From Ianthella basta (Eukaryota > Porifera > Demospongiae > Verongiida > Ianthellidae), in the NCBI GenBank assembly GCA_964019415.1, contig OZ025873.1:8372734-8436733 (forward strand): DNA of 64,000 nt, written 5' to 3'. Both the position numbers and the translations under genes were made by a program. Position 1 is the first letter of the stretch, and each line of letters opens with the position of its first letter. Of this stretch, positions 13,133-48,634 are shown piece by piece. Below the pieces are notes generated by a model. That model was not told the DNA's origin and made no database searches. It was given only the letters and a program-made list of their open reading frames with translations.

Positions 13133-13165
<33 letters not shown>

Positions 13166-14997: not shown

Positions 14998-15305
14998 TTA
15001 CTGTCCCTTGAGCCTCAGAGCCTCTTTCTTTAGTTCACTTGTCCACAAACCGTTGTTGCTCTTTTGCAGCATGTCACAGAAGATGTCAAATTCTTTGTCT
15101 CCCTTCCCACGCAAGATCTCAATTAATCGTTCCATCTGTGGTCTGTCACCCTGCAAACGTGCTACCGACTGTGCTTCAGCTCGGTCCATGAAACCACTGA
15201 CCGGTTTCTCCAGCATGTTACTGAGCCCAGTGGACGTCATCACATTGAGCATGAGCTTTCCTTTCAGGGCAACTAATGCACCATCATTCCAGGGACTCAT
15301 GGGAA
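14998..15305 (-). CDS. ROCO/CARD gene, terminal exon: CARD domain and stop
   Basis: Minus-strand exon starting after ctgcag at 15307-15306 and ending with TAA at 15000-14998. It codes for VPMSPWNDG, then a roughly 90-residue CARD-like fold: LMLNVMTSTGLSNMLEKPV, then a helix with QMERLIEILRGKGDKEFDIF and a final helix WTSELKKEAL. The pattern of short helix, LIEIL, G, F..F, ..L matches CARD helices 3-5. CARDs assemble death-fold signalling complexes by homotypic contact. The exon needs one upstream base, which the CARD exon ending at 16564 supplies (G+TT = Val). The 68-nt exon at 15848-15781 does not. Confidence 0.7.
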
Positions 15306-15780
15306 CTGCAGTGACAGTCAGGAATACAGTGTAATGACAGGAAATGCAGACAAAGGTCATGTAGTGATTTAAACTTCCATGGATCAGTTCACTACGTTTA
15401 ATGTTAGATGTGTGATACGGTATGTTCTAATCAAACAACTATGGTTTTGTGCCCGCCTTACTTTTCTCCTGTTAATTTGATAGATCACATTGAAATGAAT
15501 CATACTTGCTGTGAACATTAATCCCCAAACCATGCACTTTGGTTTTATGCTAAAGATGCAGCAACAATCATTCCATAAAATGAGAATCATAGTTGTCAAC
15601 AAACCCAGTAAAATAGCATTTGTTGTCCCACCAGACAGAGTTGGGAAGGATAAGCACCGGATGTGATGTTGCGTGTGACTAAACAGTAAAGTTAGGCATA
15701 AATCACAAGCAGCTACGTGTATGGCCACAGAAACGGACAAAACGTGTTCAACCCACATGGTTCATGTTATGTAAGCTAAC

Positions 15781-15848
15781 CTGGATCAGAAGGTTGGTCT
15801 TGGTTGGCTCAGGGTGCATAGCAGCAGTTTGCTGATTGGCAGGGATTT
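15781..15848 (-). CDS. Possible alternative/cassette exon of the ROCO/CARD gene
   Basis: It has a good acceptor (ctgtag) and donor (CAG followed by gttagc) and reads EIPANQQTAAMHPEPTKTNL. It accepts phase 1 from the CARD exon upstream but ends in phase 0, while the terminal exon needs phase 1. Including it would shift the last CARD out of frame. It could be a regulated cassette, the end of an alternative form that reads on to a stop in the intron, or not an exon. Confidence 0.35.
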
Positions 15849-16339
15849 CTACAGGTAGATGTAAAGAATAGCATACAAAGGATACATCTACAGTACATAC
15901 AGAAAACATACAGTCAAGATAGCTTAATATGCGGTACAATAATAGAATAAAGAATAAAGAATAACGTACAAAGGATACATGTACAAACCATACAGAAAGC
16001 ACACAGTCAGAATAGCTTTATATATGGCACAGTTTACTGTTAACACCTCATTCCATATAACGGACTCAGTCTGGAAAATCAGGATTAACACCATCCATCA
16101 GTATCCCCTAACTGTACCCAACTCTTATGTCTTACATACATGGTAGGGCTGTATATACTGCTCGCATGGAGGGGAGTTGTTTGGTAGCAATTATATGTAG
16201 TTGTTTGTTGTAAGTATTATGTCAACCAAACTGTTGACCTACAACAGTTTGGTTTAACACCTCCAACAGTATCTCCTAACTGTACCCAACTCTTATGTCT
16301 TACATACAAACAACCAATGAGCACTAACTGCTGTTACAC

Positions 16340-16555
16340 TCATGCACAGACAGGCACACGCACGCACACACACACACACGTGCCCACACACAAGCACTCA
16401 CATGTGCACACAGGCACTCACACATGTACACACAAGCACTCACATGTGCACACAAGCACGCACACATGTGCACACAAGCACTCACACATGCACACACACA
16501 CGCACGCACACATGTGCCCACACACACGCACACATGTGCACACAAGCACTCACAA
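16340..16555. repeat. CA-rich minisatellite (CACACATGTGCACACAAGCACT variants)
   Basis: Tandem units of about 20 bp containing the palindrome CATGTG/CACATG, adjoining the donor of the CARD exon at 16564. A 46-bp direct repeat (about 16095-16143 and 16267-16312) lies just before it. Confidence 0.8.
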
Positions 16556-16563
16556 ATACCAAC

Positions 16564-16845
16564 CTCCTGGCGATAGTTCTGCCTTTATCTTCTCCACAAA
16601 AGCCTGCATGTTGGGAAGGCCTTCTGCATCAATAGCCACTTCACAAAACTCCATCAGACTGTCCACATTGGCGTGACGTTTCAAGTGGGCGTACAAAATC
16701 TCCTGTGCATCTTTGCCATTCGATTTCTCAATTTCCGCCCTAACATCCTCTGTAATGACGCCTGTACGAACAAGTGTACGCAGGCCAACTTTGGCATTGA
16801 CAACTCGAAAGAACTCTTTCTCGTGTTTCTTGAGAATGTCTGCAG
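16564..16845 (-). CDS. ROCO/CARD gene: first CARD-like domain exon
   Basis: 282-nt exon, phase 1 to 1. The acceptor is either gatcag (start 16845) or ctgcag six bases further; both keep the frame. It encodes ADILKKHEKEFFRVV, then GLRTLVRTGVITEDVRAEIE, DAQEILYAHLKRHANVDSL and a last amphipathic helix to KAELSPG. The opening H..EFF..VN, the LV..GVIT.DV turn and the EIL..L segment are CARD hallmarks. It lies between the SETV exon and the terminal CARD exon, so the C-terminus of this protein carries two tandem death-fold domains. Confidence 0.72.
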
Positions 16846-17718
16846 CTGATCATGTAATTATTGCAAAGAAGGAATGATACAACAACTGAGCACACTGTCA
16901 CAAGGTAACAGATACCTCTCCTTCCCCCTTCCATCAACAGTACAATGGATACGGTATGATGGTTCTACACTTCTCACTTAGTAAAGACATTGCAGCTCTT
17001 CCTCTCATTAGCTTCTATAATACAAGCAATTAAGGATTGACCCCCATTCCCATCTGTGTATGACTGCATTAGAAAATAGTTCGGCTTGACTCACACCTGG
17101 TCACCCCCCCCCCCCCACACACACAGACACACTACTACTAGCCCCTACTTCGACCTCTTGCACGAGATGATCAAGTAGGAACTACACCAACTGAAACTTC
17201 AGTACTGACGGACACATTCATACAGGGTGACTGACCTACCAGAGCTCATTGTCGCTTCTTTCCTTTACCTTGTATAACCATAGACACAAGGCTGTCAGTG
17301 GGTTAGTGCTGCCACACACTCCCTGCCTCCACTGTCGTTGCAACCATGTAGATATTAGCACCTCTTGCAGACGGCTAGATTTGGAGCAGCTAATACAACC
17401 AGTAATAAGAGAATCTGAGCGCAAAACTAAGTGCCTGACTGTTCAGTCCACACGGCTGCTTCAAGGTGGCAGCTTAGTTTTCCAAATAGAAAAATTGGGA
17501 ATGGGAATCGGAATGTATCGGACAGATGCTTATCTAAAAACTCCCAATTCCAGCGCTGTCAGTGCTGCAAGTATGCTTGAACGTTGTACACGGACGACAT
17601 TGACCCAAGGCAAGTGATTTTGCCTTAAATAGGTGGATCTCGTTTCAAAGTAACGAGTTCCACATCTCACACACTCACTCATATTCCTCGCAAGTGATAC
17701 AAATGACAACTAACTCAC

Positions 17719-17787
17719 CGTACACTTTCTGTGACAAGATGTTGTCCTTCACATCATCGCCACTCACTGTCTCACTTTGTGGTAAAT
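17719..17787 (-). CDS. ROCO/CARD gene: short linker exon (SETV..DDVKDN)
   Basis: 69-nt exon, phase 1 to 1, with acceptor ctgcag and donor gtgagt. It reads DLPQSETVSGDDVKDNILSQ then KVYG. It could start an alpha-helical segment before the CARD. The 10.4-kb decayed copy shows that this exon was duplicated. Confidence 0.65.
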
Positions 17788-18118
17788 CTGCAGGTATAGA
17801 GGTGAGTAGAGGAGAAGTGGAATACACTGTACTGACTGTATGCATCTAAACACGTACCCATACACACTTTGAGTGTCTCACGTACACCCATGCAATATCA
17901 CCCACAGCTCCTACACACACAAGCCTACAATTGTAAACTACACACATCAGCTGTGAACACAGTCACTTGACAAGATAGAAGCCCACTGGCATGACCACAT
18001 AGAGGGAGGTGGGGGCATAGCCAGCAAACATGTTCCTCACAACACTAGACAGGTAACTGTGTATTGTATGTAGTGTGTGTGAGTCACTGTATCACACAAA
18101 GTTTCAAGTATACCATAC

Positions 18119-18278
18119 CAGTCAATCTTGGTTGCTTGGCACTCCTCTCTGAAGAGCACGCTGTGGACTGCTGAGCATGCTCTTTCTGTCGCTTGTGCCC
18201 CGTTTTAGGTGGACCACTGGAAGAACCACCAGTTGTCTCTTCCATGACCCACATGCTACCATCATCTACCTCCACAAG
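18119..18278 (-). CDS. ROCO/CARD gene: hydrophilic linker exon after COR
   Basis: 160-nt exon, phase 0 to 1, directly compatible with the ROC-COR exon end. It encodes LVEVDDGSMWVMEETTG followed by a Ser/Gly/Lys-rich segment with a basic cluster (KTGHKRQKEHAQQ) and ends KQPRLTG. Probably an unstructured spacer. Confidence 0.65.
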
Positions 18279-18476
18279 CTGTGGTAGGGACAGAGTGACA
18301 TCACATAGTATGCAGGACACATACGTATACAACCAGAAGTAATGGACTCTTAGTGAGCTACTCTGGCATGCATCAGCGCTAAATAGGGCTACTTTGAACA
18401 ATTCACTTCAACAAAGAACTAAACAGGTAAGATCTATATAAGTTACAGTCAACAGAAACAAACTTCAGGTATTTAC

Positions 18477-20503
18477 CTCAACATTTGCCACTGGAATGAA
18501 CCATACTCTCTCCCGGTTCAAGCTTTTGCTCCGCTGGTCTGTGGCTTGGCAGATCAGGGTCTTTGTCTTGGATGACATTGGGGTGGCCAGATGGGGCACC
18601 TTCCTACAGTCACACTCAAACCCAAACACGATCTTAGCTGTCTGGCTGAACTGGTCTCCTAGTACATCCTCAGCTGAGGGAATGATGCTCTTGTGAAGTG
18701 TGTCAAATAATTGTCTACACAGTTTGTGCAGTTCTGCTAGTGGCTCCTTCCCCTCCAACTCCTCCACCAGGACAGGAGTGAGGCTGATGAATCCTGGGGC
18801 CTCTGTGAGGTACAGCTCAAAGTCCTCTGAGTGAAATTTGACTGTGGTGCGATCACTTTTCTGTGGAATGGGTCTCCATGGTCCCTTGCTGAGCTCCACT
18901 GCCAGTCGGCAAAAGACTCCTCGGGGGAGGTCTGTGTAGACCAAGGGGTTGTCAGGGGAGTGGAATGTGAAGGTGACACAGAGGGGGGCCATAGTGCTGC
19001 AGTCTGGCAGCTTTGTCTTCCCTTGAGGGAGGGCTATTGGCATGAAGTAGGAGGGGGAGTGATCGGGGGCTGATGCATAGCGTGCCGCCAGCCCAATGTG
19101 CTCCAGAGCTGCGAGGAGCCAACTTCGCTCTACCTCCTCTGTGATTCGCAGCTCCTGAAAGATCTCTGCATCATTGGAGATGATGCCAAATTGCTTAAAG
19201 GCCTTCACAGCTTGACTATCTGGCTCTGCATGGAACTGAACAGCCAACAATTTTGACACCTCCTTCAGGAACACCCCTTTGTCGATGCAGACGTAATTGG
19301 CCTCATCTGGGACATCTTTGAGGTCAAAGAATGAGTAGAAGCCAAGGATGGAGAACAGCTTTAACAGGGAGTGAAACTGCTCATCTGCACTATTTCCATA
19401 AATGAAATTGCGCTCCAGGCAGAAGGTCTTCAGGTCTTGGAACCGAAAGAACTTCTTTGGGTGGACTTGGGTGCATTGCTTGCAGATGTACCACCTCAGT
19501 GGTACCTTAATCTTCAAAGAAGACGGTTTGCTGGAGAGCTTCCCACGCAGGCTGTTGATGCAGGCCCCTTCGTCTTCTTTCACTGTTGTGTTGTCGATGA
19601 GGTAAAATGGCTGCCCTTTATTCAGTACGATGCAGGGATAGTATGGCTTGCACTCCAACGCTGTCAAGTGCTTGCTGATATCTTGGGTTGCCTCCTTGAG
19701 CCTGCTTTCCTTGACCAGCTGATCCTTGAATGTGCCCACCACAAAAATGCGCAGCTGTGGCAACTGACTTCCTTCTTGCTGTATCGAGGCCAGCTCTTTG
19801 GAGCACTTGTGGGCCATGGTCTGCATGCTGGAGAAGGAGCGCAGCATCATTTCCCATCCTGTCTCAGCACTGGGTGGGAGGGATTCCTCTGTGTGGTCAT
19901 CAGGGCGGTATGTGATGGGGACAGGCTGATCCAGGTCACGGGCTGCATTGAACACCTGGATGTACGTACAGGGGGTATTCAGGAGGAGGGGGAGGGCATC
20001 CTGGAAAGATGGCTGACCACCGGTGTCGAGGAGGTGAATGAAAGAGGCATCATTCAGCTTGATACTTTCACATCCTTCTCTCCTTGCACATGCATACAGA
20101 ACATCGGCACCACTTACAGTAGCGGCTACTGTAGGCTGGAGAAGGCTATCCTCTTGTTGCATTTGAAACTCAGAGTGATGCTCTTGAGGATGTTTGAGAT
20201 CCTTTTCATATGCCTTGGCTGTGATACATTGATACAAGGATTTTCCCATGATGTCATCACCAACCAGCTGCCATGCAGAGGTGCCTTCCTCTACTGCGTA
20301 TTGCTCAGATGAAACTTGGATCACCTCTGGTGTGTCCACCACAGCCGTGCTTGTCTTTACCGCCTTGGGTGTGTTGTGTACCAGGAGGTGCTTTAGGGAG
20401 GACTTCCCCACTGCCGAAGACCCAATGAAAATGCACTGTGTTACTTCCACTGACACCGAGCCATACTCAAGGGATTGTCGGTATACAGGTAGCCAATACC
20501 ACT
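18477..20503 (-). CDS. ROC-COR GTPase exon of a ROCO-family protein
   Basis: A single 2,027-nt minus-strand exon, open throughout (675 codons plus two bases). The acceptor ctgctccttttag precedes 20503 and the donor GAG|gtaaat is at 18477. The ROC (Ras-of-complex) domain has a P-loop GSSAVGKS at exon residues 27-34, a G3 motif DTGGQPSF near residue 155, and VVGTFKDQL near 255 in place of the usual N/TKxD base-recognition motif. The C-terminal half fits a COR dimerisation region followed by a winged-helix-like part (KEVSKLLAVQF). ROCO proteins are large GTPases that dimerise through COR (LRRK, DAPK1 and MFHAS1 types). No leucine-rich repeat or kinase is seen nearby; the downstream exons carry CARDs. 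It needs one base from the previous exon. Confidence 0.88.
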
Positions 20504-20568
20504 CTAAAAGGAGCAGTGTAATAGTGGAGCATGTATTGAAGATGGTATACTAGCAAATGCAACACATT

Positions 20569-20569
<1 letters not shown>

Positions 20570-20599
<30 letters not shown>

Positions 20600-20606
20600 G
20601 GGAGGG
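20570..20606. repeat. (GT)n followed by poly-G run
   Basis: GTGTGTGTG followed by about 20 G, interrupted by a single A. It lies upstream of the ROC exon acceptor on the minus strand. Confidence 0.85.
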
Positions 20607-20699
20607 GAGGAATATACCTTACTATTTGTATGTGTGGTGTGTGTAGACTGTAGCAACTGGACTGACTACACCAATCAGTGCTCATGGCACTTCTAGTGA

Positions 20700-22280: not shown

Positions 22281-22289
22281 AGAAAATTT

Positions 22290-22880: not shown

Positions 22881-22889
22881 ACAGCATGC

Positions 22890-25480: not shown

Positions 25481-25489
25481 AGGGGCCAT

Positions 25490-25950: not shown

Positions 25951-26814
25951 GCATGGTTGATTGTTGATGGAGGAAGGCGTTGGACGAGAATAAACTGGTT
26001 GGATGTGTGCCTCTATTGCATCAATCTGTACACCACACTATCTTTACATACAGGAGACAACAAAGGATGCCACACAATGGACACCTTACAATACTTACTT
26101 TGGAGTTCCTCCATCTCCCCTGCAGAGAAGACAGATTGAGGAAGAGTAACACACGTGCAGTAAAGTACACCACACAAACACGACACATGACACAACACAA
26201 CCACTTGCTACTCATTATTGTAGACAAAGGGCTGGAATTGCTAAAGGACTGAGGGAACAGCATGCATTGTGACAGACTTGGACTGGGACACACTATGAGC
26301 ATACATCATGTGGTAACCATGACAACAGCTACAACATTCCTACAGTTTGAAGTAGTCAACAGTGTCATCTACTCTTGCAAACTAAATACCTCAAGACAAT
26401 GCCAACACTAAGGCATTATGTAAGGTTCCCTATCACTACATGGTAAGGTGGCACGTACACATGAGTCTGCAACAGTGCATGAACTTGGTACTCATGGCAG
26501 TAGACAGAGTTGGCTAAGGTCACACCTGAATTGTGATACACACATACAGTAAAGTAAACAACATGTCACATGACACAATCGGTAGTACTAAAACTTGGAT
26601 CATGGACTAGCAGAATAGCAGAAGAACGAAAACAGCAGAATAACACACTAATGATTTTAAAATTCAGTGTCACTTGACGCGTAAACTAACGAGTGTAGCT
26701 TGCATGCATTTCTGTCCAGAAAGATTTCAAAATTCTGAACAAAACGAATGAAAATCAGTATACTGACAACTCTGTGAAAGCACTAAGTTTGCTCACATCA
26801 CTGAAGGGACGTAA

Positions 26815-29498
26815 ATAAGGCTGTCTGTGTGGATACGATGAGTGCTAAACTACTTCAAACTGCAGCCCCTGGTACCAGGAGCCATACAGCACTATTCAGT
26901 CACAGCCTTGATACTGGGATGGTTCCTTGTGAGAGGAAGTCGGCCAATGTTTGCCCTGTACCAAAGGATCATTGTAGTGAAGAGGTGGCAGCTTTAGACT
27001 GATATCAACACTCCCAGTAGTGGCTAAAGTGTTTGAGCGTATTGTTCACCAGTGGCTATATGGCTCTTTACAGGAGAAGTCCATCTTACATCTTACATAG
27101 TCAGGATTCATAGCTTAGTATAGCACCCAATGCCAAAGACAATGCCAACACTAAGGCATTATGTAAGGTTCCCTATCACTACATGGTAAGGTGGCACGTA
27201 CACATGAATCTGCAACAGTGCATGAACTTGTTACTCATGGCAGTAGACAGAGTTGGCTAAGGTCACACCTGAATTGTGACACACACATACAGTAAAGTAC
27301 ACAACATGTTTAGTATACACCACGCAACATGTCACATGACACAATCGGTAGTACTAAAACACAGAATATGGAATAGCAGAATAGCAGATCAACGAAAAAG
27401 CAGAATAAAGGAATAATAATTTTAAAACAACATACGACTCGTAGGCTAACAAGTGTGGCTTGCGTGCATTATCTTTCAGAAAGGGTTCAAAATTCTGAAC
27501 AAAACAAATCAGTATGCTGATAACTCTTAGACTATCAGCGACCATCTAACTCCATCAGAGCATCAAGTATGTTGACATCACTGGACAGTGTGGGCAGAGG
27601 GACGGGAGGACCCGGCAGCATGTGGCAAGCACACTTTCTATGCTTCATTAAGATGCCACCATTTTCCCACATGAAGGGGCGGGGCTAGTCCCCAATACAC
27701 CAAAATGGTTGCTGCGGGGTCCTCCCGGGACATTATGTAACTTATGTCATTACCACTTAACAACTCTTCCTGATCATGGCAATTGGTAATCTGGAGGGGT
27801 GTGGCAATAAAGACCAGCCCCTTAGCTGAATAGATTACTGCTAAGGTATCTTTACTCAGAGGACACCTAACTTGAAAGTATTTATGGTGGTTTACAACCA
27901 ATCAGAAACTAGATTGTGTAATTCATACAAAATTGCAGCAGCGGCAATTCTTTTGCTGTTGAAGTGCTTTATTGAACGAATGAGACTGACAACAATGTTG
28001 TTGTCAATACAAGTGTAGACATTGTTCTTTCCCAAGGGAAGTGGAACTGAATTGACTAATCGTTCAGTGTCCAACGTCATGTGCATGTGTGAGACTACAT
28101 TCCTCCTATCTCAGCCTGTGGACACTTCCCTCAACGATTCTGACTTAAAAGGATAATGCATCCACAAGTGTGCAATGGTCTGATACTGCACACTTCTAAC
28201 CTTTGATGTATGGTTTCATCATTCAATAACTACAGTACATTATATACGAGGTCTCCAGAAATAAAGTACACACACAACTCTTATTGTACTATTTGTATAG
28301 TGAGCTGTAGGACATGAAGAGACAATGAACTTCACACCAAATGCACAACTAGTGTAAGTAGAATCATAAGTAGATGGAATGTACTCACATTGCATTCGTT
28401 GCCTTTCCTCCTCTGCTGCTGCTGCTGCCTGTGGAGTAATGAGAGGCAGTTACACAAGTACACATGGCCACTCTGTCATTACACAACACACAACTGTCCA
28501 ACACAACACTCCACAGCAGTTGAAACAATCTTGCAATAGACCTTTGCAGTTAATAAGGGCTGAGGAATGGAAGACTGTTACCTGCATATGACGCCATGGG
28601 GGGCAGTGATTCCATATCTTGATGTGTATGGGATTAACTATAAAAGGCCACCTTCAATGAACAATACCTTGCAGCCCAACTCAGTAACTACCCAGAGAAC
28701 ACAACTCCTAGACATACACATCATTGCTTAGCTGCTATACAATCAACTGAACAGTTGCTGAGATGGAGAGAGTACTTGCACCTCTAACTGGACACAAAGT
28801 GGGAGATATGAACTAGGTCTGGGACAAATATTGATGTTACTATTCAAACCTTCATCTGAAAAGGCTTCAAATGCTGTGAAGTGTCGCTATGTATGCATTG
28901 AAAACTATCTTATTCAAGACTATGATGTCATTAAAATGGCCGTCTGATGGATCAGTGAGTCTACAGGTGTCTCGTGTAGCCAGACCACTTTCTGGAAAGT
29001 GGTCTGGATATGCAAGACTAGTCTACACGTCTGTTATGAATTAGCAATAATAATATGTTTGATCCTGACAGCGATTAGAGCAAAATTCCATATCATCTTC
29101 AAACAAATGCTGACACGTGTGTACATTAATCAAGTTTATCTCACAGGTCAATAACTTGGTGTACAGGACAATATACATAAGGTTGATCCCAACTACCAAT
29201 TTGTGATACAGTCACAATTCACACTGCCAATTGCTTTCAGGACAAAGGTCCATCACTTTACAAACATGCCCACTCATCGCCTAGGATAGGGATGGGTACA
29301 GTACACAACAATAATCAATATCACCAGGCTGTATCCATGGAAACGCCTGTCCACAGTTAGGGGACATGACGGCAAGATTGCACAAAACCACTACCACTGC
29401 TACAGGAGCAGTGAGAGAAGAGTCACTCTGAGGTAGTTACAGGTGCACACACAGCCACCCTGTGTCTATTGCAAGAGACAGAGTCACACTCACACTGG
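26815..29498. repeat. Segmental duplicate block, left copy
   Basis: Collinear with 44036-45475 and again with 45830-47694. It includes an RT fragment, the repeated 220-bp block, an element with GCACACTTTCTATGCTTCAT and ACATTATGTAACTTATGTCA, and the small Ala/Glu exon at 28389-28428. The right copy carries an extra foldback insertion (45091-45263) and an internal re-duplication. Confidence 0.8.
28389..28428 (-). CDS. Small Ala/Glu exon, copy 1
   Basis: 40-nt minus-strand exon (phase 0 to 1) between a good acceptor (ttactccacag) and donor (gtgagt). It reads AAAAAEEERQRMQ and one spare base. It accepts phase 0 from the NZF exon at 32238. Its final T followed by the AG that opens the ROC exon would form TAG, so it cannot splice directly to that exon. 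The copy at 46636-46603 is six bases shorter. Confidence 0.45.
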
Positions 29499-29642
29499 CA
29501 TAACAACTAGAGTACACATAGCATACGTACATACCCTGCGCACGAGTGAAAAGTGAATGCATGTTTGTGAGCGTAGACAGTGCAGTGCTATGTAATTGGT
29601 TGATAGCCTCTAAAACTATTTTGTTAAGTGCTTCAATTGTGT

Positions 29643-30360
29643 ATAGAGTGACTTGCGTGGGTGGATCAAAGAAATTTTGAGTACTTTATATTGCGTAATC
29701 TTGCAGCGTGCTTTATGGCCGTTCTTTATGGAAGTTAAAGAACGCTAGGAGTGCCATAAAGAACTCTAGCAAGAAACACAAGCGCTCAAACTTCCTCCTT
29801 ACGCCATTAAGGGTGGATTCTGTCCAGTGTGGTCTGACTGAGATCGCCAATTACAAACGTTCCTTTTCATTTCTGCTGAAGTGTTACCTCGCCACTCTGT
29901 AAGTTAAAGTCTAGCCTGCTACCCATCCTTCGCTTCTGAAAGGCGGCAACAAGTGCTCTAATGGTAGAGGAAGGGTGCTTCGCTAGTCCTTTTTGCGTCT
30001 CTTGAACTGGCAGTCCGAGCGGGCATCTGCGCACTAGCTAGCTAGCTAGCCAAAGGGATAGTACCAATGGCAGCAAATAGTTGTTCTTCTGCGATGATAA
30101 AAAGGACATAGCGCAGCTCAGACTTGTTCTATTAAGGCGCATTGAGAGTCTTCTTGCCAGTGAAGGAGCGTTTTCATCCACTACTGCTACTACTCGCTTC
30201 GCTATACCTTCCTTCTGACAAGAATGCTAGGCAAGTTTGAATGGAGTCAACCAATCACATTACAGATGACGCAATAGAATCAACGAAATATGGCTTGCAG
30301 ATGATGCAATTGGAAAATGGAAGACTGAAGGCCAACCGTCCACCCGTGCAAGTCACTCTA
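29643..30360. mobile_element. Putative DNA-type element with imperfect terminal inverted repeats
   Basis: The left end TAGAGTGACTTGCGTGGGTG and the right end (reverse complement TAGAGTGACTTGCACGGGTG) match over about 23 bases with a few mismatches, 718 bp apart. The interior has no transposase. It is present here but not in the 47.7-kb duplicate, where homology ends at the preceding ACTGGCATAA. Confidence 0.4.
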
Positions 30361-30378
30361 CAGTATATCATTTAAAGT

Positions 30379-30519
30379 GGGCTAGGAGTGCTTTATGCGA
30401 TTTATGGCACTCGGTGTGGGGGTCTCGTTGCGTGATAAAGCACTCGGCTTAGCCTCGTGCTTTATCAGCAACTCGACCCCCACACCTCGAGCCATAAATC
30501 GCATAAAGCACTCCTAGCC
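30379..30519. repeat. Foldback palindrome, arms about 68 bp
   Basis: Starts GGCTAGGAGTGCTTTATGCG and ends with its reverse complement; the arms are nearly perfect around a three-base centre at about 30449-30451. Part of the theme (TGCTTTATGG, AGGAGTGCC) recurs at 29705-29760, so this is a short interspersed foldback family. Confidence 0.85.
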
Positions 30520-30712
30520 ACTTATAAAGAGTAGCCACATGGATTGGTATGAAAATGCAAGAAAGAAGGTACAAACACATCCACAGTAGCACTATGTACA
30601 CAAGCAGAACAGAACACTAACTACTGATTGCATACAAGTTCCAACTTCTTAGACACCCTTCATACCCTTACACCCATCTACAATTAACACGCACGCATGC
30701 ACGCACGCACGC

Positions 30713-30855
<143 letters not shown>

Positions 30856-30859
30856 TAAC

Positions 30860-32150
30860 TTATGCAGACAAATGCAGAGAAGAATAGGATACATGTATAT
30901 GTACATGACAGTTGAGTCAGCTGTGTCTAGAACAACTGCTACCTGTTTCAAAGTAGGAATGGAAAGAGTGCGCGCTCCACTGCATACATATTCTTTCTCC
31001 CCAGTACTCTTCACACACAATCACAGATGAATGAACCCACACACACATGTACACTGATGACTGGTGTTTAGAGCTGTCATTGGAGATGTTCTGAGCTATG
31101 ATTATATGCATGGCCAGTTCGGAACCAAGTGAAGGGGAGCCACTTGCATCTGAGACCGCTACTTCTAAATATCTGCAGTCAATTGCATGGAAGAGAGCAG
31201 GAAGATTTGGCACAGACAGGCAAGAAAGGTATTAGGAGACAACAAAGGATCATTACTACCCAGCGAATCCATAGGAAAGTTTTCAGAGTCTTCACAGACA
31301 CTGCATGCTGCCAACCGTCCGCAGCCATTCTACATAGCCTCAGCTCACTGTCCGTATGGCTAAAATACACAAACAAAATGGCGGACCCCAGGAAATACCA
31401 AGAAAGATGGCAATTTCTCGCAAACCATCCCTATCCATAAAATCCAGGTCCACAGACAGCACCACTTGACGCCCTGCCATTATTGTCTCAGGCGTGGGGT
31501 CGTATAAGGTTCTAGATCAACCGCGCGAGCGGCAAATGTCAAAACTGCCGACAGACAGACAGACAGACAGACTGAAGCAATCACTTAACCCCCCTGCGCT
31601 ATCACGCGTGGGGTAAATATATATGCGCTGTCCCTGCGAACAATTCAGTCAGTTCTCAATGGAGGGCCACCCTATGAAGTAGGATTAAGGGCAGACGTTG
31701 AAGGAATGTAACAAGAAGGTTTAAGGTTGTTGGAGAGTTCTTTTATTGGGCTTCCTACATTGTTGTCGATTGTCAATGATGCGAACATCGTCAAGAGGAC
31801 AGAGGGGAAGTGATTGGATCAGAGAACAGTTTTGGATCTATAAAATTTAAATGCTGCCTAATTTGTGTCTGCGAGGGTTTAGATCACTCAGCACTTGGAT
31901 GCTTTGTGCACTCAAGCTTCGTGCTCTAAATCCTGCAGACACCTCTTGGGAGGCATTTAACTCTTATGTAACTGGTGACTAACAATTATTGCTGAAATTT
32001 AGATATGTCCTTAGCATAGCAACACTATATGCATTCACTATGGATCACGTGCCCTACAGTGCTTTTTTGGTGTAGCTACATAACTCCTACATCGTACCTG
32101 ATATGGCCCATAGCTGCATACGTACATCACAAACACCACCACTCCTTACA
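30860..32150. other. No gene recognised; SINE-like tail
   Basis: Contains (GACA)n at about 31547-31572 just after a GC-rich ACCGCGCGAGCGG segment, bracketed by GGCGTGGGGTCGTATAAGG and CACGCGTGGGGTAA. No exon seen. Confidence 0.45.
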
Positions 32151-32151
32151 C

Positions 32152-32152
<1 letters not shown>

Positions 32153-32221
<69 letters not shown>
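32153..32221. repeat. (CA)n microsatellite next to the NZF exon donor
   Basis: Pure CA tract, 17 bases downstream of the NZF exon's donor on the minus strand. Confidence 0.9.
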
Positions 32222-32223
<2 letters not shown>

Positions 32224-32237
32224 CATCAGATACCCAC

Positions 32238-32431
32238 CTGTCTTGTAGTTTCCTCTTCCTGGTCCAGCTTCCTCATCAGTTCCTTCTCTGAGTCATCAAA
32301 CTGGTAGTCCAGAGGTGGCTGGTAGTCTGCAGGCCGGGCAGTGGCGCATATCTCACAGCCAGGGCGAGCGGGCTTGTTGACGAAAGTGCAAGTGGGGCAT
32401 GCCCAGCCAGCAGTAACATTAGTGGTCAATT
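32238..32431 (-). CDS. NZF (RanBP2-type) zinc finger exon resembling HOIL-1/RBCK1
   Basis: 194-nt minus-strand exon (acceptor ctcaacag, donor gtgggt; phase 1 to 0). It encodes GWACPTCTFVNKPARPGCEI followed by CATARPADYQPPLDYQFDDS and a Glu-rich helix ending EEETTRQ. The finger has W-x-C-x(2)-C-T-F-x-N-x(6)-C-x(2)-C, the Npl4/NZF consensus with the Thr-Phe pair that contacts ubiquitin. The tail (ARP.DYQ...Y..D..E) closely follows the segment after the NZF of HOIL-1 (RBCK1), a LUBAC subunit. No UBL or RBR exons of a HOIL-1 gene are found nearby. Phase fits the Ala/Glu exon at 46636-46603 upstream (C+AA = Gln). Confidence 0.78.
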
Positions 32432-32969
32432 CTGTTGAGAAAATTGCAGATACAGCAAGTGCACATACACACTTAACAACCTGTCGACACAGTACTCAAG
32501 ACACTTCACTTGTTACAATATATTAATGCCCTCTATGGAAACAAAAGATACAGCACTATTCAGTCACAGCCTTGATACTGGGATGGTTCCTTGTGATTCC
32601 TATGCAAGGAACAAACATGCCATGGCCTGTACACTCGGCTCCGCATGTGACATGTTACGATCCTAAAAATTTGATTAGTCCTTCCAAGATCCTGGTATGC
32701 TGAGTCAGCAAAACCAAGGAATGCAGCATTGTGCACCAGACCCACTTTTCGTGTGTGGCGGCCACGTTTGCAGAAGTGGGGCTAGGAACGAGACTACTGA
32801 ATAAAAGAATACTAATATTAAAATGGTGGACGATTTGTAGGCTAACAAGTGTAGCCTGCATGTGTTTCTGCCTAGAACAGGTTTCAAAATGAAGGAAAAA
32901 CAGTATTTTGATGATTCTTCTGTTGAAGTGCTAAGTTTGCTCACATCACTGGAGGGACATAAATAAGGC

Positions 32970-33450
32970 TGTCTGTGTGGATACTATGAGTGCTAAACTA
33001 CTTCAAACTGCAGCCCCTGGTACCAGGAGCCATACAGCACTATTCAGTCACAGCCTTGATACTGGGATGGTTCCTTGTGAGTGGAAGTCGGACAATGTTT
33101 GCCCTGTACCAAAGGGTCATTGTAGTGAAGAGGTGGCAGCTTTAGACCGATATCAACACTCCCAGTAGAGGCTAAAGTGTTTGAGTGTATTGTTCACCAG
33201 TGACTATATGGCTCTTTACAGGAGAATTTCATCTTACATCTTACACAGTCAGGATTCATAGCTCAGCATAGCACCCAGGATGTACTGGTAAGCATGGTTG
33301 ATGGCTGATGGAGGAAGGCGTTGGATGAGAATAAGCTGGTTGGATGTGTGCCTCTATTGCATCAATCTGTACACCACACTAACTTTACATACAGGAGACA
33401 ACAAAGGATGCCACACAATGGACACCTTCCAATACTTACTTTGGAGTTCC
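32970..33450 (+). mobile_element. Non-LTR reverse transcriptase fragment
   Basis: Same broken RT text as at 24.5 kb, preceded by the 5' segment KMVDDL, stop, ANKCSLHVFLPRTGFKMKEK. Internal deletions bring RT-N directly to a Leu/Gln-rich segment. Confidence 0.65.
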
Positions 33451-34469
33451 TTCAGCTCTGCAGAGAAGACAGATTGAGGAAGAGTGACACATGTGCAGTA
33501 AAGTACACTACACAAACATGACACATGACACAACACAACCACTTGCTACTCATTATTTTTTAGACAAAGGGCTGGAATTGCTAAAGGACTGAGGGAACAG
33601 CATGCATTGTGACAGACCAGGACTGGGGCACACTTTGTAGTGCACATCTTGTGGTAACCATGACAACAACTACAACATTCCTACAGTTTGTAGTAGTCAA
33701 CAGTGTCATCTACTCTTGCAAACTAAATACCTCAAGACAATGCCAACACCAAGGCATTATGTAAGGTTCCCTATCACTACATGGTAAGGTGGCACGTACA
33801 CATGAGTCTGCAACAGTGCATGAACTTGTTACTCATGGCAGTAGACAGAATTGGCTAAGGTCACACCTGAATTGTGACACACACATACAGTAAAGTACAC
33901 AACATGTTTAGTATACACCACACAACATGTCACATGATGCAATCGGTATTACTAAAACTTGGATTACGGAATTCATAGCTCAGCATAGCACCCAGGATGT
34001 ACTGGTAAGCATGGTTGATGGTTGATGGAGGAAGGCGTTGGATGAGAATAAGCTGGTGTGTGCCTCTATTGCATCAATCAGTACACACACTATCTTTACA
34101 TACAGGAGACAACAAAGGATGCCACACAATGGACACCTTACAATACTTACTTTGGAGTTCCTTCAGCTCTGCAGAGAAGACAGATTGAGGAAGAGTGACA
34201 CATGTGCAGTAAAGTACACTACACAAACATGACACATGACACAACACAACCACTTGCTACTCATTATTGTAGACAAAGGGCTGGAATTGCTAAAAGACTG
34301 AGGGAACAGCATGCATTGTGACAGACTTGGACTGGGGCACACTTTGAGCATACATCTTGTGGTAACCATGACAACAGCTACAACATTCCTACAGTTTGAA
34401 GTAGTCAACAGTGTCATCTACTCTTGCAAACTAAATACCTCAAGACAATGCCAACACTAAGGCATTATG

Positions 34470-37525: not shown

Positions 37526-37949
37526 CAAAGTACACAACACGTTTACCATACACCACACAACATGTCACATGACACAGTCGATATTACTAAAATGCAGAAT
37601 ACAGAATAGTGGAACAACGAACAGCTAAAATAACTAGTCTATTCTCCAGCCCCAGCATTGTTGATGGTTTATGGAGGAAGGTGTTGGATGAGAATAGGCT
37701 GGATGGATGTGTGCCTCTATTGCATCAATCTGTACACACACTATCTGTACATACAGGAGACAACAAAGGATGCCACACAATGGACACCTTACAATACTTA
37801 CTTTTGCGTTCCTCCCAGAACCCTGCAGAGAAGACAGATTGAGGAAGAGTGACACTTTCGGTGTATAAGTCGCACCCTAGAAAAGACTGCTGAGAATTAA
37901 GCCTGAAACTGCAAGTTATACACAAGCAAATACGGTACCTCAAGACAAT

Positions 37950-38720: not shown

Positions 38721-38859
38721 GGCTATAACAATTGTAGCCTGTGTGCGTTTCTGCCTAGAAAGGTTTCAAGGAAAACTAGTATATATATTGACGACTCGGT
38801 CAAAGTGCTAAGTTTGCTTACATCACTGAGTTGTGGAAATAAGGCCGTTTGTGTGGATG

Positions 38860-39360
38860 CTATGAGACTCAGTGCTAAACTACGTACTTCAAACTGCAGC
38901 CCCTGGTACCAGGAGCCATACAGCACTATTCAGTCACAGCCTTGATACTGGGATGGCTCCTTGTGAGTGGAAGTCGGACAATGTTTGCCCTGTACCAAAG
39001 GGTCATCGTAGTGAAGAGGTGGCAGCTTTAGACCGATATCAACACTCCCAGTAGTGGCTAAAGTGTTTGAGTGTATTGTTCACCAGTGGCTATATGGCTC
39101 TTTACAGGAGGATACCATCTTACATCTTACACAGTCAGGATTCATAGCTCAGCATAGCACCCAGGATGTACTGGTAAGCATTGTTGATGGTTTATGGAGG
39201 AAGGTGTTGGATGAGAATAGGCTGGATGGATGTGTGCCTCTATTGCATCAATCAGTACACACCACTATCTTTACATACAGGAGACAACAAAGGATGCCAC
39301 ACAATGGACACCTTACAATACTTACTTTTGCGTTCCTCCCAGAACCCTGCAGAGAAGACA
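38860..39360 (+). mobile_element. Non-LTR reverse transcriptase fragment
   Basis: Longest in-frame piece of this family: VFECIVHQWLYGSLQEDTIL, TQSGFIAQHSTQDVLVSIVD, then a rearranged tail. Stops separate it from the RT-N part. Confidence 0.68.
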
Positions 39361-39624
39361 GATTGAGGAAGAGTGACACATGTGCAGTAAAGTACACCAC
39401 ACAAACACGACACATGACACAACACAACCACTTGCTACTCATTATTGTAGACAAAGGGCTGGAATTGCTAAAGGACTGAGGGAACAGCATGCATTGTGAC
39501 AGACTTGGACTGGGGCACACTTTGAGCATGCATCTTGTGGTAACCATGACAACAGCTACAACATTCCTACAGTTTGAAGTAGTCAACAGTGTCATCTACT
39601 CTTGCAAACTAAATACCTCAAGAC

Positions 39625-40930: not shown

Positions 40931-40937
40931 GGTGACT

Positions 40938-41345: not shown

Positions 41346-41574
41346 CAGTGCATGAACTTGTTACTCATGGCAGTAGACAGAGTTGGCTAAGGTCACACCT
41401 GAATTGTGACACACACATACAGTAAAGTACACAACATGTTTAGTATACACAACATGTACCATACGACTTGTAGGCTAACAAGCGTAACTTGCATGCATTT
41501 CTGTACAGAAAGATTTTAAAAGTCTGAACAAAACAAATGGAAATCAGTATGCTGAGAACTCTGTCAGAGCATTA

Positions 41575-42627: not shown

Positions 42628-42772
42628 GGCATATGTAAGGTTCCCTATCACTACATGGTAAGGTGGTACGTACACATGAGTCTGCAACAGTGCATGAACT
42701 TGGTACTCATGGCAGTAGACAGAGTTGGCTAAGGTCACACCTGAATTGTGACACACACACATACAGTAAAGT

Positions 42773-43209
42773 CATAGCAATTAAATTCCTGTTTCACATC
42801 CTACCCCTAGCTTTCAAAGCCATGTACCATGTGGGCGGGTGAGCAAATTACAAATACAGGAAACAATTACATAGCTTATTATATTGTACAATAGCACATA
42901 GATTCTCTATGAATAGCAAGAGTGCTAGGGTGACAACAGTTTTGGTTGACACCCCCACCCACACAGATAGGAACACACAGCAATGATGCCGTTTTCCTTT
43001 AAATGATATCCTAAGACACTGTCTCTGTATAAAATAAATGTCAGTTAAGCTGCATCAGGGTGAATTTGTCTGTGAGTTTTCAAAAGCTTCAAAGACAATA
43101 CTCAATGCGGACCGAGTACATATAAATTAATACATTGTGTTTTGCCAGCTTCTCTGCCAGGAGGTGTATGAGGAGGGGATGAGAAACAAGAAATTTAATT
43201 GCTATGGCC
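42773..43209. mobile_element. MITE with CATAGCAATTAAATT ends, copy 2
   Basis: Duplicate of 37089-37525 at the equivalent place in the duplicated block. The target duplication TAAAGT is perfect here. Confidence 0.75.
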
Positions 43210-45090
43210 TAAAGTACACAACACGTTTACCATACACCACACAACATGCCACATGACACAGTCGGTATTACTAAAATGCAGAATACGGAATAGTGGAACA
43301 ACGAACAGCTAAAATAACTAGTCTAGTCCCCAGCCCCACTTCTGCAAACATGGCTGCTGCCAGTGAAAAGTGGGTCTGCCACACAATGCCACAGTTCTTG
43401 GTTTGTTGACTAAGTATACTTCAAGCGATATCTTTTGTGATCATCTCAATGCTATCCCGTCGTCTTTACAAGAAAGTGTTGCTGGAATCATCAAGTACTA
43501 GGGGAATACATGTACATAAAACAAAGGCTCGTACCATTTTGAGTGTGAAGTGAACTTACTATATTGTGCCCACTGACAACAGTAGCACTTCACCTTGATC
43601 GTTTTCAGGTCTGCCATACCCAAGTTTCTGAATGCTCTTGGTGGGCAATGATATGGCGAAAGTGATTCCTGTGCAAGGAACAAACATGCTGTGGCCCGTA
43701 CCCTTGGCTCTGCATGTTACATTATACGATCCTAAGAATCTGATTACGTAGTCCTCCATGATCCTAGTTTGCTGAGTCAGCAAAACCAAGATATGCAGCA
43801 TTGTGTGCCAGACCCACCTTTTGCGGGTGGCAGCCATGTTTGTGGAAGTAGGGTTGGGAAAGAGGCTATTGAATAACAGTATACTAATATTAAAATGGTG
43901 GACGACTCGTGGGCTAACAAGTGTAGCCTGCATGTGTTTCTGCCTAGAACGGGTTTCAAAATAAAGGAAAAATAGTATTTTGATGATTCTTCTGTCAAAG
44001 TGCTAAGTTTCCTCACATCACTGGAGGTATGTAAATAAGGCTGTCTGTGTGGATACTATGAGTGCTAAACTACTTCAAACTGCAGCCCCTGGTACCAGGA
44101 GCCATACAGCACTATTCAGTCACAGCCTTGATACTGGGATGGTTCCTTGAGTGGAAGCTGGCCAATGTTGCCCTGTACCAAAGGGTCATCGTAGTGAAGA
44201 GGTGACAGCTTTAGACTGATATCAACACTCCCAGTAGTGGCTAAAGTGTTTGAGTGTATTGTTCACCAGTGGCTATATGGCTCTTTACAGGAGAAGTCCA
44301 TCTTACATCTTACATAGTCAGGATTCATAGCTTAGTATAGCACCCAATGCCAAAGACAATGCCAACACTAAGGCATTATGTAAGGTTCCCTATCACTACA
44401 TGGTAAGGTGGCACGTACACATGAGTCTGCAACAGTGCATGAACTTGGTACTCATGGCAGTAGACAGAGTTGGCTAAGGTCACACCTGAATTGTGACACA
44501 CACATACAGTAAAGTACACAACATGTTTAGTATACACCACACAACATGTCACATGATGCAATCGGTATTACTAAAACACAGAATATGGAATAGCAGAATA
44601 GCGGAACAACGAAAAAGCAGAATAAAGGAATAATAATTTTAAAACAACATACGACCTGTAGGCTAACAAGTGTGGCTTGCGTGCATTATCTTTCAGAAAG
44701 GGTTCAAAATTCTGAACAAAACAAATCAGTATGCTGATAACTCTTAGACTATCAGCGACTATCTAACTCCATCAGAGCATCAAGTATGCTGACATCACTG
44801 GACAGGGTGGGCAGAGGGACGGGAGGACCCGGCAGCATGTGGCAAGCACACTTTCTATGCTTCATTAAGATGCTACCATTTTCCCACATGAAGGGGCGGG
44901 GCTAGTCCCCAATACACCAAAATGGTTGCTGCGGGGTCCTCCCGGGACATTATGTAACTTATGTCATTACCACTTAACAACTCTTCCTGATCATGGCAAT
45001 TGGTAATCTGGAGGGGTGTGGCAATAAAGACCAGCCCCTTAGCTGAATAGATTACTGAAGTGAGGGTTTCTCAGCTGGCTCAGGCATCAG

Positions 45091-45263
45091 AAAGGGGGTT
45101 GGTTCTCTAATACCAGCTTCACAACAGGGTTGAAAACCTTGCCGACGTTTCGACCAGATGCTCTGGTCTTCTTCGCCCTGAAGAAGACCAGAGCATCTGG
45201 TCGAAACGTCGGCAAGGTTTTCAACCCTGTTGTGAAGCTGTTATTAGAGAACCAACCCCTTTC
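45091..45263. repeat. Foldback element with hammerhead-like core
   Basis: About 83-bp arms, nearly perfect inverted repeats, centred at about 45175-45178. Each arm contains CTGAAGAA, a GACCAGA/TCTGGTC hairpin, then GAAACGTC, which resembles a degenerate hammerhead ribozyme core. The flanking GCTGGCTCAGGCATCAG also flanks the shorter relative at 63246. Confidence 0.85.
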
Positions 45264-46602
45264 TGAATAGATTACTACTAAGGTATCTTTACTCAGAGGA
45301 CACCTAACTTGAAAGTACTTATGATGATTTACAACCAATCAGAAAATAGATTGTGTAATTCATACAAAATCTGTAGAAAACACATAGATTGTGTAAATCA
45401 TACAAAATTGCAGTAGTGGCAATTCTTTTGCTGTTGAAATGCTTTATTGAACGAACGAAACTGACAACAATGTTATCAAAACAAGTCACATGATGCAATC
45501 GGTAGTAGGGCATTACTAAAACGCGGAATAACGGAATCCGATATGTCACATGACACAATTAGTATTACTAGAACACAGAATATGGAATAGTGGAACAACA
45601 AAATAGCAGAATAATGGTATAATAATTTTAAAATAGCATACGACTTGTAGGCTAACAAATGTAGCTTGCGTGCATTTTTGTCCAAAAAGGGTTCAAAATT
45701 CTGAATAAAATGAATGGAAATCAGTATATTGACTACTACTATACTACTACTATGCAACACTGTGAAAGCATTAAGTATGCTCACATCACTGGACAGGGTG
45801 GGTGGAGGGTCGGTGGCGTGTACACTTTCTATGCTTTATTAAGATGCCACCACATTCCCACGTGAAGGGGAGGGGCTAGTCCCCAATAGACCAAAATGGT
45901 TGCTGCGGGGTCCTCCCGGGACATTATGTAACTTATGTCATTACCACTTAACAACTCTTCCTGATCATGGCAATTAGTAATCTGGAAGGGTGTGGCAATA
46001 AAGACCAGCCCCTTGGCTGAATAGATTACTGCTAAGGTATCTTTACTCAGAAGACACCCAACTTGAAAGTACTTGTGATGGTTTACAACCAATTAGAAAC
46101 AAGATTGTGTAATTTATACAAAATTGCAGCAGTGGCAATTCTTTTGCTGTTGAAGCGCTTCATTGAACGAACAACTGACAACACTGTTGTTATCAATACA
46201 AGTGAAAACATTGCTCTGTCCCAAGGGAAGTGGAACTGAAATGGCTAAGTGTTCAGTGAACGCAATGGAGATCATTCTCCTAGTCCAATGCCATGTGCAT
46301 GTGTGAGACTACATTCCTCCTATCTCAGCCTGTGGACACTTCCCTCAACGATTCTGACTTAGAAGGATAATGCATCCACAAGTGTGCAATGGTCTGATAC
46401 TGCACACTTCTAACCTTTGATGTATGGTTTCATCATTCAATAACTACAGTACATTATATACGAGGTCCCCAGAAATAAAGTACACACACAACTCTTATTG
46501 TACTATTTGTATAGTGAGCTGTAGGACATGAAGAGACAATGAACTTCACACCAAATGCACAACTAGTGTAAGTAGAATCATAAGTAGATGGAATGTACTC
46601 AC

Positions 46603-46636
46603 GTTGCCATACTTCCTCCTCTGCTGCTGCTGCTGC
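46603..46636 (-). CDS. Small Ala/Glu exon, copy 2
   Basis: 34-nt minus-strand exon (phase 0 to 1) with acceptor ttactccacag and donor gtgagt. It reads AAAAAEEEVWQ plus one base. Phase 0 fits the death-domain exon end at 48040, and the spare C completes a Gln codon at the start of the NZF exon (32431). It would equally give Gln (C+AG) if joined to the ROC exon at 20503. Polyalanine/glutamate encoded by GCA repeats suggests a flexible helical spacer. Confidence 0.5.
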
Positions 46637-47699
46637 CTGTGGAGTAATGAGAGGCAGTTACAGGAGTACACATGGCCACTCTGTCACTACACAACACACA
46701 ACTGACCAACACAACACTCCACAGCAGTTGAAACAATCTTGCAATAGACCTTTGCAGTTAATAAGGGCTGAGGAATGGAAGACTGTTACCTGCATATGAC
46801 GCCATGGGGGGCAGTGATTCCATATCTTGATGTGTATGGGATTAACTATAAAAGGCCACCTTCAATGAACAATACCTTGCAGCCCAACTCAGTAACTACC
46901 CAGAGAACACAACTCCTAGACATACACATCATTGCTTAGCTGCTATACAATCAACTGAACAGTTGCTGAGATGGAGAGAGTACTTGCGCCTCAAACTGGA
47001 CACAAAGTGTGAGATATGAACTAGGTCTGGGACAAATATTGATGTTACTATTCAAACCTTCATCTGAAAAGGATTCAAATGCTTTGAAGTGTCGCTATGT
47101 ATCCATTGAAAACTATCTTATTCAAGACTATGATGTCATTAAAATGGCCGTCTGATGGATCAGTGAGTCTACAGGTGTCTCGTGTAGCCAGACCACTTTC
47201 CGGACATGCGAGACTAGTCTACACGTCTGTTATGAATTAGCAATAATAATATTTTGATCCTGACAGCGATTAGAGCAAAATTCCATATCATCTTCAAACA
47301 AACGCTGACACGTGTGTACATTAATCAAGTTTATCTCACAGGTCAATAACTTGGTGTACAGGGCAATATACATAAGGTTGATCACAACCACCAATTTGTG
47401 ATACAGTCACAATTCACACTGCCAATTGCTTTCAGGACAAAGGTCCATCACTTTACAAACATGCCCACTCATCACCTAGGATAGGGATGGTACAGTACAC
47501 AACTATAATCAATATCACCAGGCTGTATCCATGGAAACGACTGTCCACAGTTAGGTGACATGACTGCAAGATTGCACAAAACCACTACCACTGCTACAGG
47601 AGCAGTGAGAGAAGAGTCACTCAGAGGTAGTTACAGGTGTACACACAGCCACCCTGTGTCTATTGCAAGAGACAGAGTCACACTCACACTGGCATAAAG

Positions 47700-48039
47700 A
47701 GATATGGGGGGCTGGGCCAATGTGAACTTTGTCAAGTGGTAAGGAAGTAGGCAAATGACCTCTGCTCATTACAATGAACTATTGCTGACAGGTCAAACTG
47801 AAGGGATAAAGTTGTGGATATGCATGAAGTGGACCCTGACAGGGGAGAGGGCCAGGAGCAGTCAACAATCTCCCCAGCTGCTACACAAGGTGATATGTAC
47901 AAGTGGAATTCTTGCATTAGTCCTTATCCTGGGGTGGGTGCATGGGAATGGGAGCTAGGATGTTCTGCACTTTAGCACACCTGGGATACCTATTGTGTCT
48001 GTGTCCCAACCCACTGTGGACAATATGTAATCTACCCAC
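47700..48039. other. Intron of the death-domain gene
   Basis: Unique sequence between the right edge of the repeat array and the death-domain exon donor. Nothing else seen. Confidence 0.5.
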
Positions 48040-48634
48040 CTCAAAGTCTTTGGCCACATCATCCAGTCCAACAGTGGAAGACCTTAGAATGGCTGAAATC
48101 TTTGCGCGAGGGTGTGGAACAAAACTCCCAATCCATTCATCTAGTATCTGCTGTAGTTTCTTTTCATTTGACTCTGGTGAGCTCCGCAGTTGCAACACAA
48201 GTTCTTCATGTCCTAATTCACTTCCAATTGTGTCCCACTTGTGGGACATCCTGGGTACAAACTGCGGTAGGACATTCTTCACTGCTCTCCGCTCATAACT
48301 GCAGGAACAAGAAGTAAAAGTATTCCTCTTCAAAACAAGATACACAATCAAGTCACTAAAGACAACAAACTCATTGTCTGACGTGGGTTTAAACACATCT
48401 TCATCTCTAGCTACACCAATACACAACACGTGTCACTCAGCACACAAAGTGACACGAGGCTACTCAAAGTTTTCAACCACTTGGATCTATGGCTCTAGCT
48501 ACCTGCATATTTATAGCTACACATACATCAACAGAAACGTCATTCCTCCTTATCTATACGTGTATGGCCTCAACGATAATGCGAACGTACGCGGATTGAA
48601 ATGGATCGTCAAGACGGTCAAGATCCTCTGCCAT
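48040..48634 (-). CDS. Death-domain protein, exons 1-2 (5' end of the gene)
   Basis: Exon 1 runs from ATG at 48634 to 48591 (44 nt; MAEDLDRLDDPFQSA; donor gtacgt). Exon 2 runs from 48298 (after ttcctgcag) to 48040 (donor gtgggt). The join is exactly in frame (GC+T = Ala) and exon 2 ends in phase 0, giving 101 codons. Residues about 22-98 form a death domain: VLPQFVPRMSHKWDTIGSEL, the buried Trp at helix 2, then KKLQQILDEWIGSFV and AILRSSTVGLDDVAKDFE for helices 4-6. Death domains recruit partners by homotypic contact in apoptosis and NF-kB signalling. It lies head-to-head with ARID2, 3 kb away. I infer it is the N-terminus of the minus-strand gene whose later exons include NZF and perhaps ROC-COR-CARD. 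Confidence 0.75.

Follow-up and report, generated by a model that had tools for sequence, protein, structure and literature searches.

A 64,000-nucleotide (nt) stretch of the genome of the sponge Ianthella basta (C6:8372734-8436733, C6 being contig OZ025873.1; hereafter the window) probably carries a single minus-strand gene of a tandem, ROCO-type family. Its predicted product would consist of a death domain, a spacer encoded by an Ala/Glu exon (AE) and a series of microexons, a GTPase-like ROC(-COR) core and, after two short linkers, a CARD-like domain followed by a CARD. An initial annotation had proposed one gene running from death domain to CARD, with an NZF ubiquitin-binding finger as a further domain. 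The exon coordinates, strand, splice sites and phases that it gave are all present: every exon lies on the minus strand, with AG acceptors, GT donors and consistent phases. Its exon set was incomplete, with five microexons overlooked between the death domain and ROC, and it is these small exons that distinguish the family.

The five microexons of the window are 18 or 21 nt long and lie between AE and the ROC exon; paralogous units also have microexons of 24 and 30 nt. Each is preceded by a near-constant intron end, TCTTCTCTGCAG, and followed by GTAAGTATTG. In the 209-Mb assembly, which all genome-wide scans covered, this exact splice-flank pattern has 24 matches, all of them on the minus strand of C6 between 7.79 and 8.41 Mb; there are none on the forward strand and none for the reversed control. 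All 24 are divisible by three (20 of 21 nt, three of 18 and one of 24), and their number is a lower bound for the genome because variants without exact flanks escape the pattern. A profile search of seven units gave 33 matches, of which three partial flanks without an exon were dropped. The 30 retained (22 of 21 nt, three of 18, two of 24 and three of 30) are likewise all divisible by three, open in phase 1 and of phase 1-1, so that both searches return a series of symmetric exons (30/30 and 24/24). Since every microexon is symmetric, the length of the spacer would be adjustable in frame. The commonest microexon encodes one heptad, R-x-x-E-E-x-K, and one of the 30 follows an intron that ends in TGCAA. 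A second class, 30 nt long, starting with TC and also of phase 1-1, occurs in three units (C6:8196395, 8096210 and 7812002).

The microexons are unusually variable. Those of 21 nt (n = 22) comprise 17 distinct sequences, with a mean pairwise difference of 0.283 in the exon versus 0.069 upstream and 0.109 downstream. The interior is thus 2.6 to 4.1 times as divergent as the flanks, although the E-E core and the frame are kept. On a flank-based tree the 21 exon sites take 71 changes versus 172 on 200 intron sites, with at most 29 in any 21 contiguous intron sites; when the exon is included in the tree, 48 exon changes stand against 176 in the intron. Changes are concentrated at residues 2, 3 and 6 of the heptad, and both glutamates are nearly invariant. 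At 100 degrees per residue the three variable positions would fall within 200-300 degrees, on one helix face. Local hypermutation or homogenised flanks could lie behind this variability.

Could the microexons merely be copies of intron DNA whose ends resemble splice sites by chance? They do sit within DNA repeats that give many alignments inside the units, and exon ends were located via an expression demanding TGCAG or TGCAA plus a GT donor, so that splice-like ends were asked for by the search. We nevertheless consider this explanation very improbable, given that lengths in four classes are divisible by three without exception (the copies duplicate one another, which makes the counts non-independent), that a hypervariable interior has retained its E-E core and frame, and that the microexons are confined to one strand of one 0.6-Mb region, where they have death-domain or ROC neighbours.

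The units in which the microexons lie appear to form a tandem family with the arrangement death domain - heptad spacer - ROC(-COR) - CARD-like - CARD. Six close copies of the death-domain exon, 68-99% identical, lie on C6, all on the minus strand; exon 2 is 259 nt long with identical ends in five of seven units. The order death domain - microexons - ROC is kept at five of the seven death-domain loci. Sixteen of the 24 exact microexons fall within these five intervals, six follow a death domain after which no ROC was found, and the remaining two precede ROC copies (7829336 and 8249548, one microexon each) for which no death domain was found upstream. The Ala/Glu exon is present in seven copies in six of the seven units; their lengths (34, 40, 52, 37, 37, 49 and 46) all leave a remainder of one when divided by three (hand count), and the same search found no such exon in the 8110 unit. 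A sister unit, unit B (C6:8167000-8206900), aligns to the window at approximately 84-100% in the main blocks (blastn E 1e-10, alignments of 80 bases or more) and is collinear with it from 8.5 to 52.7 kb, barring internal duplications, smaller gaps and 29.5-32.6 kb. Beyond these units, the genome holds at least 67 ROC copies (the best 67 of 293 candidates, some in two pieces, giving 118 rows) and at least 150 CARD1-like domains, among 698 candidates and over many contigs. Among the 150 matches listed, a CARD1-like domain lies within 6 kb downstream and on the same strand for 12 of the 67 ROC copies, and the 6 kb upstream hold none on either strand; 23 hand-picked CARD1-like places gave the identical count of 12/67. 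As an aside, Pfam CARD matches just one of 23 aligned CARD1-like members, so these make up a large, unlabelled death-fold-like family.

From the recurring units and their order, the phase-1 acceptors and the want of an early methionine, we infer that death domain and ROC belong to one gene, and the paralogous units with their conserved phases support the initial annotation here. The alternative would be two or three separate genes, with a short death-domain protein upstream and a ROC-CARD gene downstream. This would fit the death-domain exon being readable into its own intron as far as a stop (frame at 47917), the two death-domain loci with no ROC found after them, and the two microexon-bearing ROC copies with no death domain found upstream. 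Such a split is improbable, since the window ROC exon has no in-frame methionine before the P-loop, its acceptor is in phase 1 in ten of ten copies read (by eye), AE and the microexons provide precisely this phase, and the order of exons is repeated across the loci as described above.

Spliced together, the exons of the window give a single open frame. All fifteen, in the order death domain (two exons), AE, microexons m1 to m4, NZF, a duplicated Ala/Glu exon (AE'), m5, ROC, linkers L1 and L2, CARD1 and CARD2, encode 1171 codons; without NZF and AE' the frame is open over 1093 codons, making NZF plus AE' an in-frame cassette of 78 codons. Without the cassette, all 32 subsets of the five microexons are open; with it, 16 of the 32 are, because m5 must come after AE'. 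The junction from NZF to ROC had been left unsolved in the initial annotation, on account of a T+AG stop before ROC. That problem is real when the exons are joined directly: NZF plus AE' without m5 runs into this stop at codon 217 and was ruled out. The junction itself no longer is a problem, as the overlooked m5 (26119-26099) removes the stop. A direct join of NZF to ROC without AE' was likewise ruled out, by a frameshift and a stop; since omitting AE' shifts the frame, NZF and AE' are usable only jointly.

The origin of the NZF exon is clear. It was described as HOIL-1-like, and it does reach the cut-off of Pfam PF00641 (28.0 bits for the exon and 26.6 for a longer frame, cut-off 27). HOIL-1-type NZF ribbons have the pattern C-x2-C-x10-C-x2-C with W and T-F. 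A genome-wide protein search finds two strong copies, one in the window and one at C14:3887520, and seven further, weak matches at E up to 1; with just two strong copies, the idea of NZF as a family-wide domain was rejected. At C14:3887520 the neighbouring exons match RING (32.8 bits, cut-off 27) and IBR (24.6 bits, cut-off 24.3; a second exon 24.4, cut-off 27), and the IBR exon has four PDB matches at E up to 0.001, all to RBCK1, the best at 3.1e-33. By sequence, this locus is the HOIL-1/RBCK1 gene. When 29400-32700 of the window is compared with it, DNA similarity is confined to 32155-32409, at 89%. No RING/IBR part was found after NZF within 29400-32700, and the next usable exon is AE' rather than an RBCK1 exon. 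Because similarity starts inside the RBCK1 exon, the acceptor of the window NZF is new (11/17 pyrimidines versus 13/17 for the microexons), and the RBCK1 donor, GTGGGT, is retained (by eye). A 21-residue core is identical to that of RBCK1 in the same genome, its 21 codons showing one synonymous and no nonsynonymous change. The segment that bears NZF, 29503-32593, has no alignment in unit B; part of it, approximately 31200-31966, matches dispersed repeats (951 bases tested, 31200-32150; best 40 of 1056 candidates), and the remainder of the tested bases has no other match among these best 40. Within the same segment lies an imperfect palindrome (30371-30528), 87% identical to its own reverse complement, which is possibly part of a mobile element.

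Whether this captured exon is used is a separate question. The likelier answer, if by a modest measure, is that the family gene runs from death domain through spacer and ROC to the two CARDs, and that NZF is a dead exon fragment within an intron, among repeats, unused by transcripts. NZF is confined to the window unit and has dispersed repeats next to it, and its acceptor is new and poorer in pyrimidines than those of the microexons. Its open frame says little, because a neutral copy of the same age would be free of stops with a probability of 0.40. Set against this, the substitution pattern is suggestive of use. Relative to RBCK1, the copy has 8.5 synonymous changes over 37 sites and 6.5 nonsynonymous changes over 134, whereas simulation of a neutral copy, with RBCK1 supposed to be fully constrained, gave a median of 16 nonsynonymous changes (P = 0.044); a simple binomial gives P = 0.047 for six nonsynonymous changes and 0.12 for seven. 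Constraint on NZF is thus marginal, at P 0.04 to 0.12. The synonymous divergence from RBCK1 is about that of the ROC exons of close units (synonymous divergence, dS, 0.22-0.26), and the phases of NZF fit on both sides, with AE' and m5. The architecture of the initial annotation, with NZF expressed between two spacer parts so that an isoform couples ubiquitin-chain sensing to death-fold assembly, has to be weighed too. In its favour are the fully open 1171-codon frame, the near-unchanged codons of the NZF core and the preserved donor. It would demand that NZF, AE' and m5 be included jointly, the P value for constraint is marginal, and a single copy has no relative in which conservation could be checked; on balance we hold expression of this form to be possible but doubtful. 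Although NZF joins in frame as proposed, its being a single-copy RBCK1 fragment, present in one unit, means that the architecture can be no more than an optional isoform of a single gene.

The ROC and Death labels, both below their cut-offs, recur among family members. Pfam Roc matches the window at E 4e-5 (24.3 bits, cut-off 27), thus below threshold, and 7 of 12 family members at E up to 0.01; the P-loop GKSS and the DTGGQ motif are invariant in all 12. Death is also below threshold in the window (15.9 bits, cut-off 22.6), with 6 of 11 members matching at E up to 0.1 (best 6.4e-4). As for the two CARDs, CARD2 is near the cut-off (21.5 bits versus 23.9; 17.0 bits in L045, a stretch described below). 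For CARD1, the Pfam CARD profile misses the window copy and matches 1 of 23 relatives, at E 0.0077; hhalign comparison with true CARDs (P 2.4e-4, probability 44%) makes CARD1 weakly CARD-like. COR has no match in the window copy and none at E up to 0.01 in 12 members, and COR-A appears at E 0.014-0.015, below cut-off, in two of four half-exons tested, and not in the window copy. Profile searches against solved structures (PDB) with ROC-COR, the death domain and CARD1 gave nothing usable, and a match of the death domain to a 'circular tendon repeat protein' was set aside, as no stretch of it passes alone.

Several observations weigh against this reading of one gene from a microexon-bearing family. 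The exon joins are predictions from genomic sequence, and the splice-like ends of the microexons arise partly by construction, because the search expression required them. The start string of exon 1 occurs in only three of seven units (the window, unit B and unit 8110). No ROC was found in unit 8110353, which has six exact microexons, or in unit 8235378 (C6:8210500-8240400, L043-L045), which has a variant microexon, L2 and CARD2; the latter may be a ROC-less variant or a decayed copy. Unit B itself looks broken, with a stop in ROC and one mutated microexon acceptor. The COR, CARD1 and Death labels are weak. In the microexons, the proportions of synonymous and nonsynonymous differences (pS and pN) are equal at 0.28 each, so classical positive selection is not shown, and the conserved GGAGGAA core may be a splicing enhancer instead of reflecting constraint on the protein.

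In the likeliest way of working, the GTPase-like core would dimerise and switch, the death domain and CARDs would bring partners into death-fold assemblies, and the charged, putatively helical spacer would fix their distance or pairing; splicing could vary the length of this spacer without breaking the frame, and the NZF plus AE' cassette, where spliced in, would add ubiquitin binding. One might go further and see in the hypervariable heptad spacer a pairing code for each paralog, perhaps for each splice form, with the captured HOIL-1 NZF cassette of one paralog tying ubiquitin sensing to a death-fold GTPase. We regard this extended proposal as speculative and rather unlikely.

Table 1. Exons of the predicted gene and the NZF-bearing segment, in window coordinates.
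Feature	Position	Strand	Remarks
Exon 1, start codon	48591..48634	-	phase 0 to 2
Exon 2, death domain	48040..48298	-	ends in phase 0; 259 nt
Ala/Glu exon (AE)	46603..46636	-	phase 0 to 1
Microexon m1	39326..39346	-	21 nt, phase 1-1, RFWEERK
Microexon m2	37802..37822	-	21 nt, phase 1-1, RFWEERK
Microexon m3	34151..34168	-	18 nt, phase 1-1, KLKELQ
Microexon m4	33440..33457	-	18 nt, phase 1-1, KLKELQ
NZF exon, copied from RBCK1/HOIL-1	32238..32431	-	phase 1 to 0; new acceptor, RBCK1 donor
Unit-specific segment with NZF	29503..32593	not assigned	without match in sister unit B
Duplicated Ala/Glu exon (AE')	28389..28428	-	phase 0 to 1, last base T
Microexon m5	26099..26119	-	21 nt, phase 1-1; the T+AG stop becomes TGG ... 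AAG
ROC(-COR) exon	18477..20503	-	acceptor phase 1
Linker exon L1	18119..18278	-	phase 0 to 1; 96% identity to unit B
Linker exon L2	17719..17787	-	phase 1-1; 96% identity to unit B
CARD-like exon (CARD1)	16564..16845	-	phase 1-1
CARD exon (CARD2) and stop codon	14998..15305	-	99% identity to unit B

Some further features lie in or near the 3' part of the gene. A possible additional exon of 68 nt (15848-15781, minus strand, by eye) lies between CARD1 and CARD2. With its phase-0 donor it would introduce an early stop, and might give a truncated form without CARD2. Further 3', on the same strand, are a second copy of L2 and another frame (10435-10491 / 13117-13482). The L2 copy has 89% identity over 19 residues, and the frame resembles, by eye, the CARD1-like exon of L045, where this exon likewise lies downstream of CARD2; another CARD gene probably follows the one described here. 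Close to the duplicated L2 exon is an exon for a calcium-binding EGF domain (10071-10382, minus strand, 43.6 bits).

How does this family compare with known systems? DAPK1 and LRRK combine a ROC-COR core with kinase, ankyrin or leucine-rich repeat (LRR) domains, and DAPK1 has a C-terminal death domain. They have the ROC-COR core in common with the window family, and DAPK1 a death domain as well; where the window family has CARDs, they have the domains just named. Schistosome micro-exon genes, which encode secreted proteins, contain numerous small exons whose lengths are multiples of three and which splicing can skip in frame; the likeness lies in these exons, and the context is unrelated. The HOIL-1/RBCK1 gene of the same genome shares the NZF core and donor with the window, which has one exon fragment of it with a new acceptor and new neighbours, and no RING/IBR found adjoining; the genome has kept both the captured exon and the gene that supplied it. 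Our literature search returned nothing relevant on sponge ROC-COR/CARD proteins or Porifera ROCO death domains, and nothing on a HOIL-1 NZF with a death domain or CARD in invertebrates. For the sponge Amphimedon, proteins with death-fold plus TRADD-N domains have been described; in the excerpted text of that paper on death-fold expansion, ROC/COR comes up for DAP kinase homologs with LRRs and in a reference title (PMC8195603). Proteins that combine ROC-COR with death domains and CARDs have a precedent, as Trichoplax ROCO genes are reported to carry both (PMC11378527). Compared by description, those genes resemble the window family in having a ROC-COR core amid death-fold domains, and the excerpted report mentions neither a heptad-microexon spacer nor an NZF (PMC11378527).

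A parallel is described in the same excerpted report for brown algae (PMC11378527). There, each LRR of a ROCO protein is one 72-bp exon of constant phase 2, and these exons are shuffled, alternatively spliced and diversified, with positive selection tested and splice variants known. Brown algae have 9-47 ROCO genes each, said to exceed other organisms reported to date; the at least 67 ROC copies found here, some of which may be pseudogenes or lie on duplicate contigs, would be comparable to or above that range. Both are expanded families with same-phase exons divisible by three 5' of ROC, one repeat per exon and variable positions. They differ in that the exons of the window family are mostly 21-nt heptads in phase 1, that its genes have an N-terminal death domain and C-terminal CARDs, and that its splicing is a prediction. 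The unusual part of the sponge family is its hypervariable heptad-microexon array, paralleling the brown-algal shuffling of LRR exons. If expressed, it would make exon-level diversification of a ROCO family testable, and would give the brown-algal system an equivalent in an animal: a GTPase core of the same kind, preceded by a modular array that varies fast, though one built from heptads and wired to death-fold domains.

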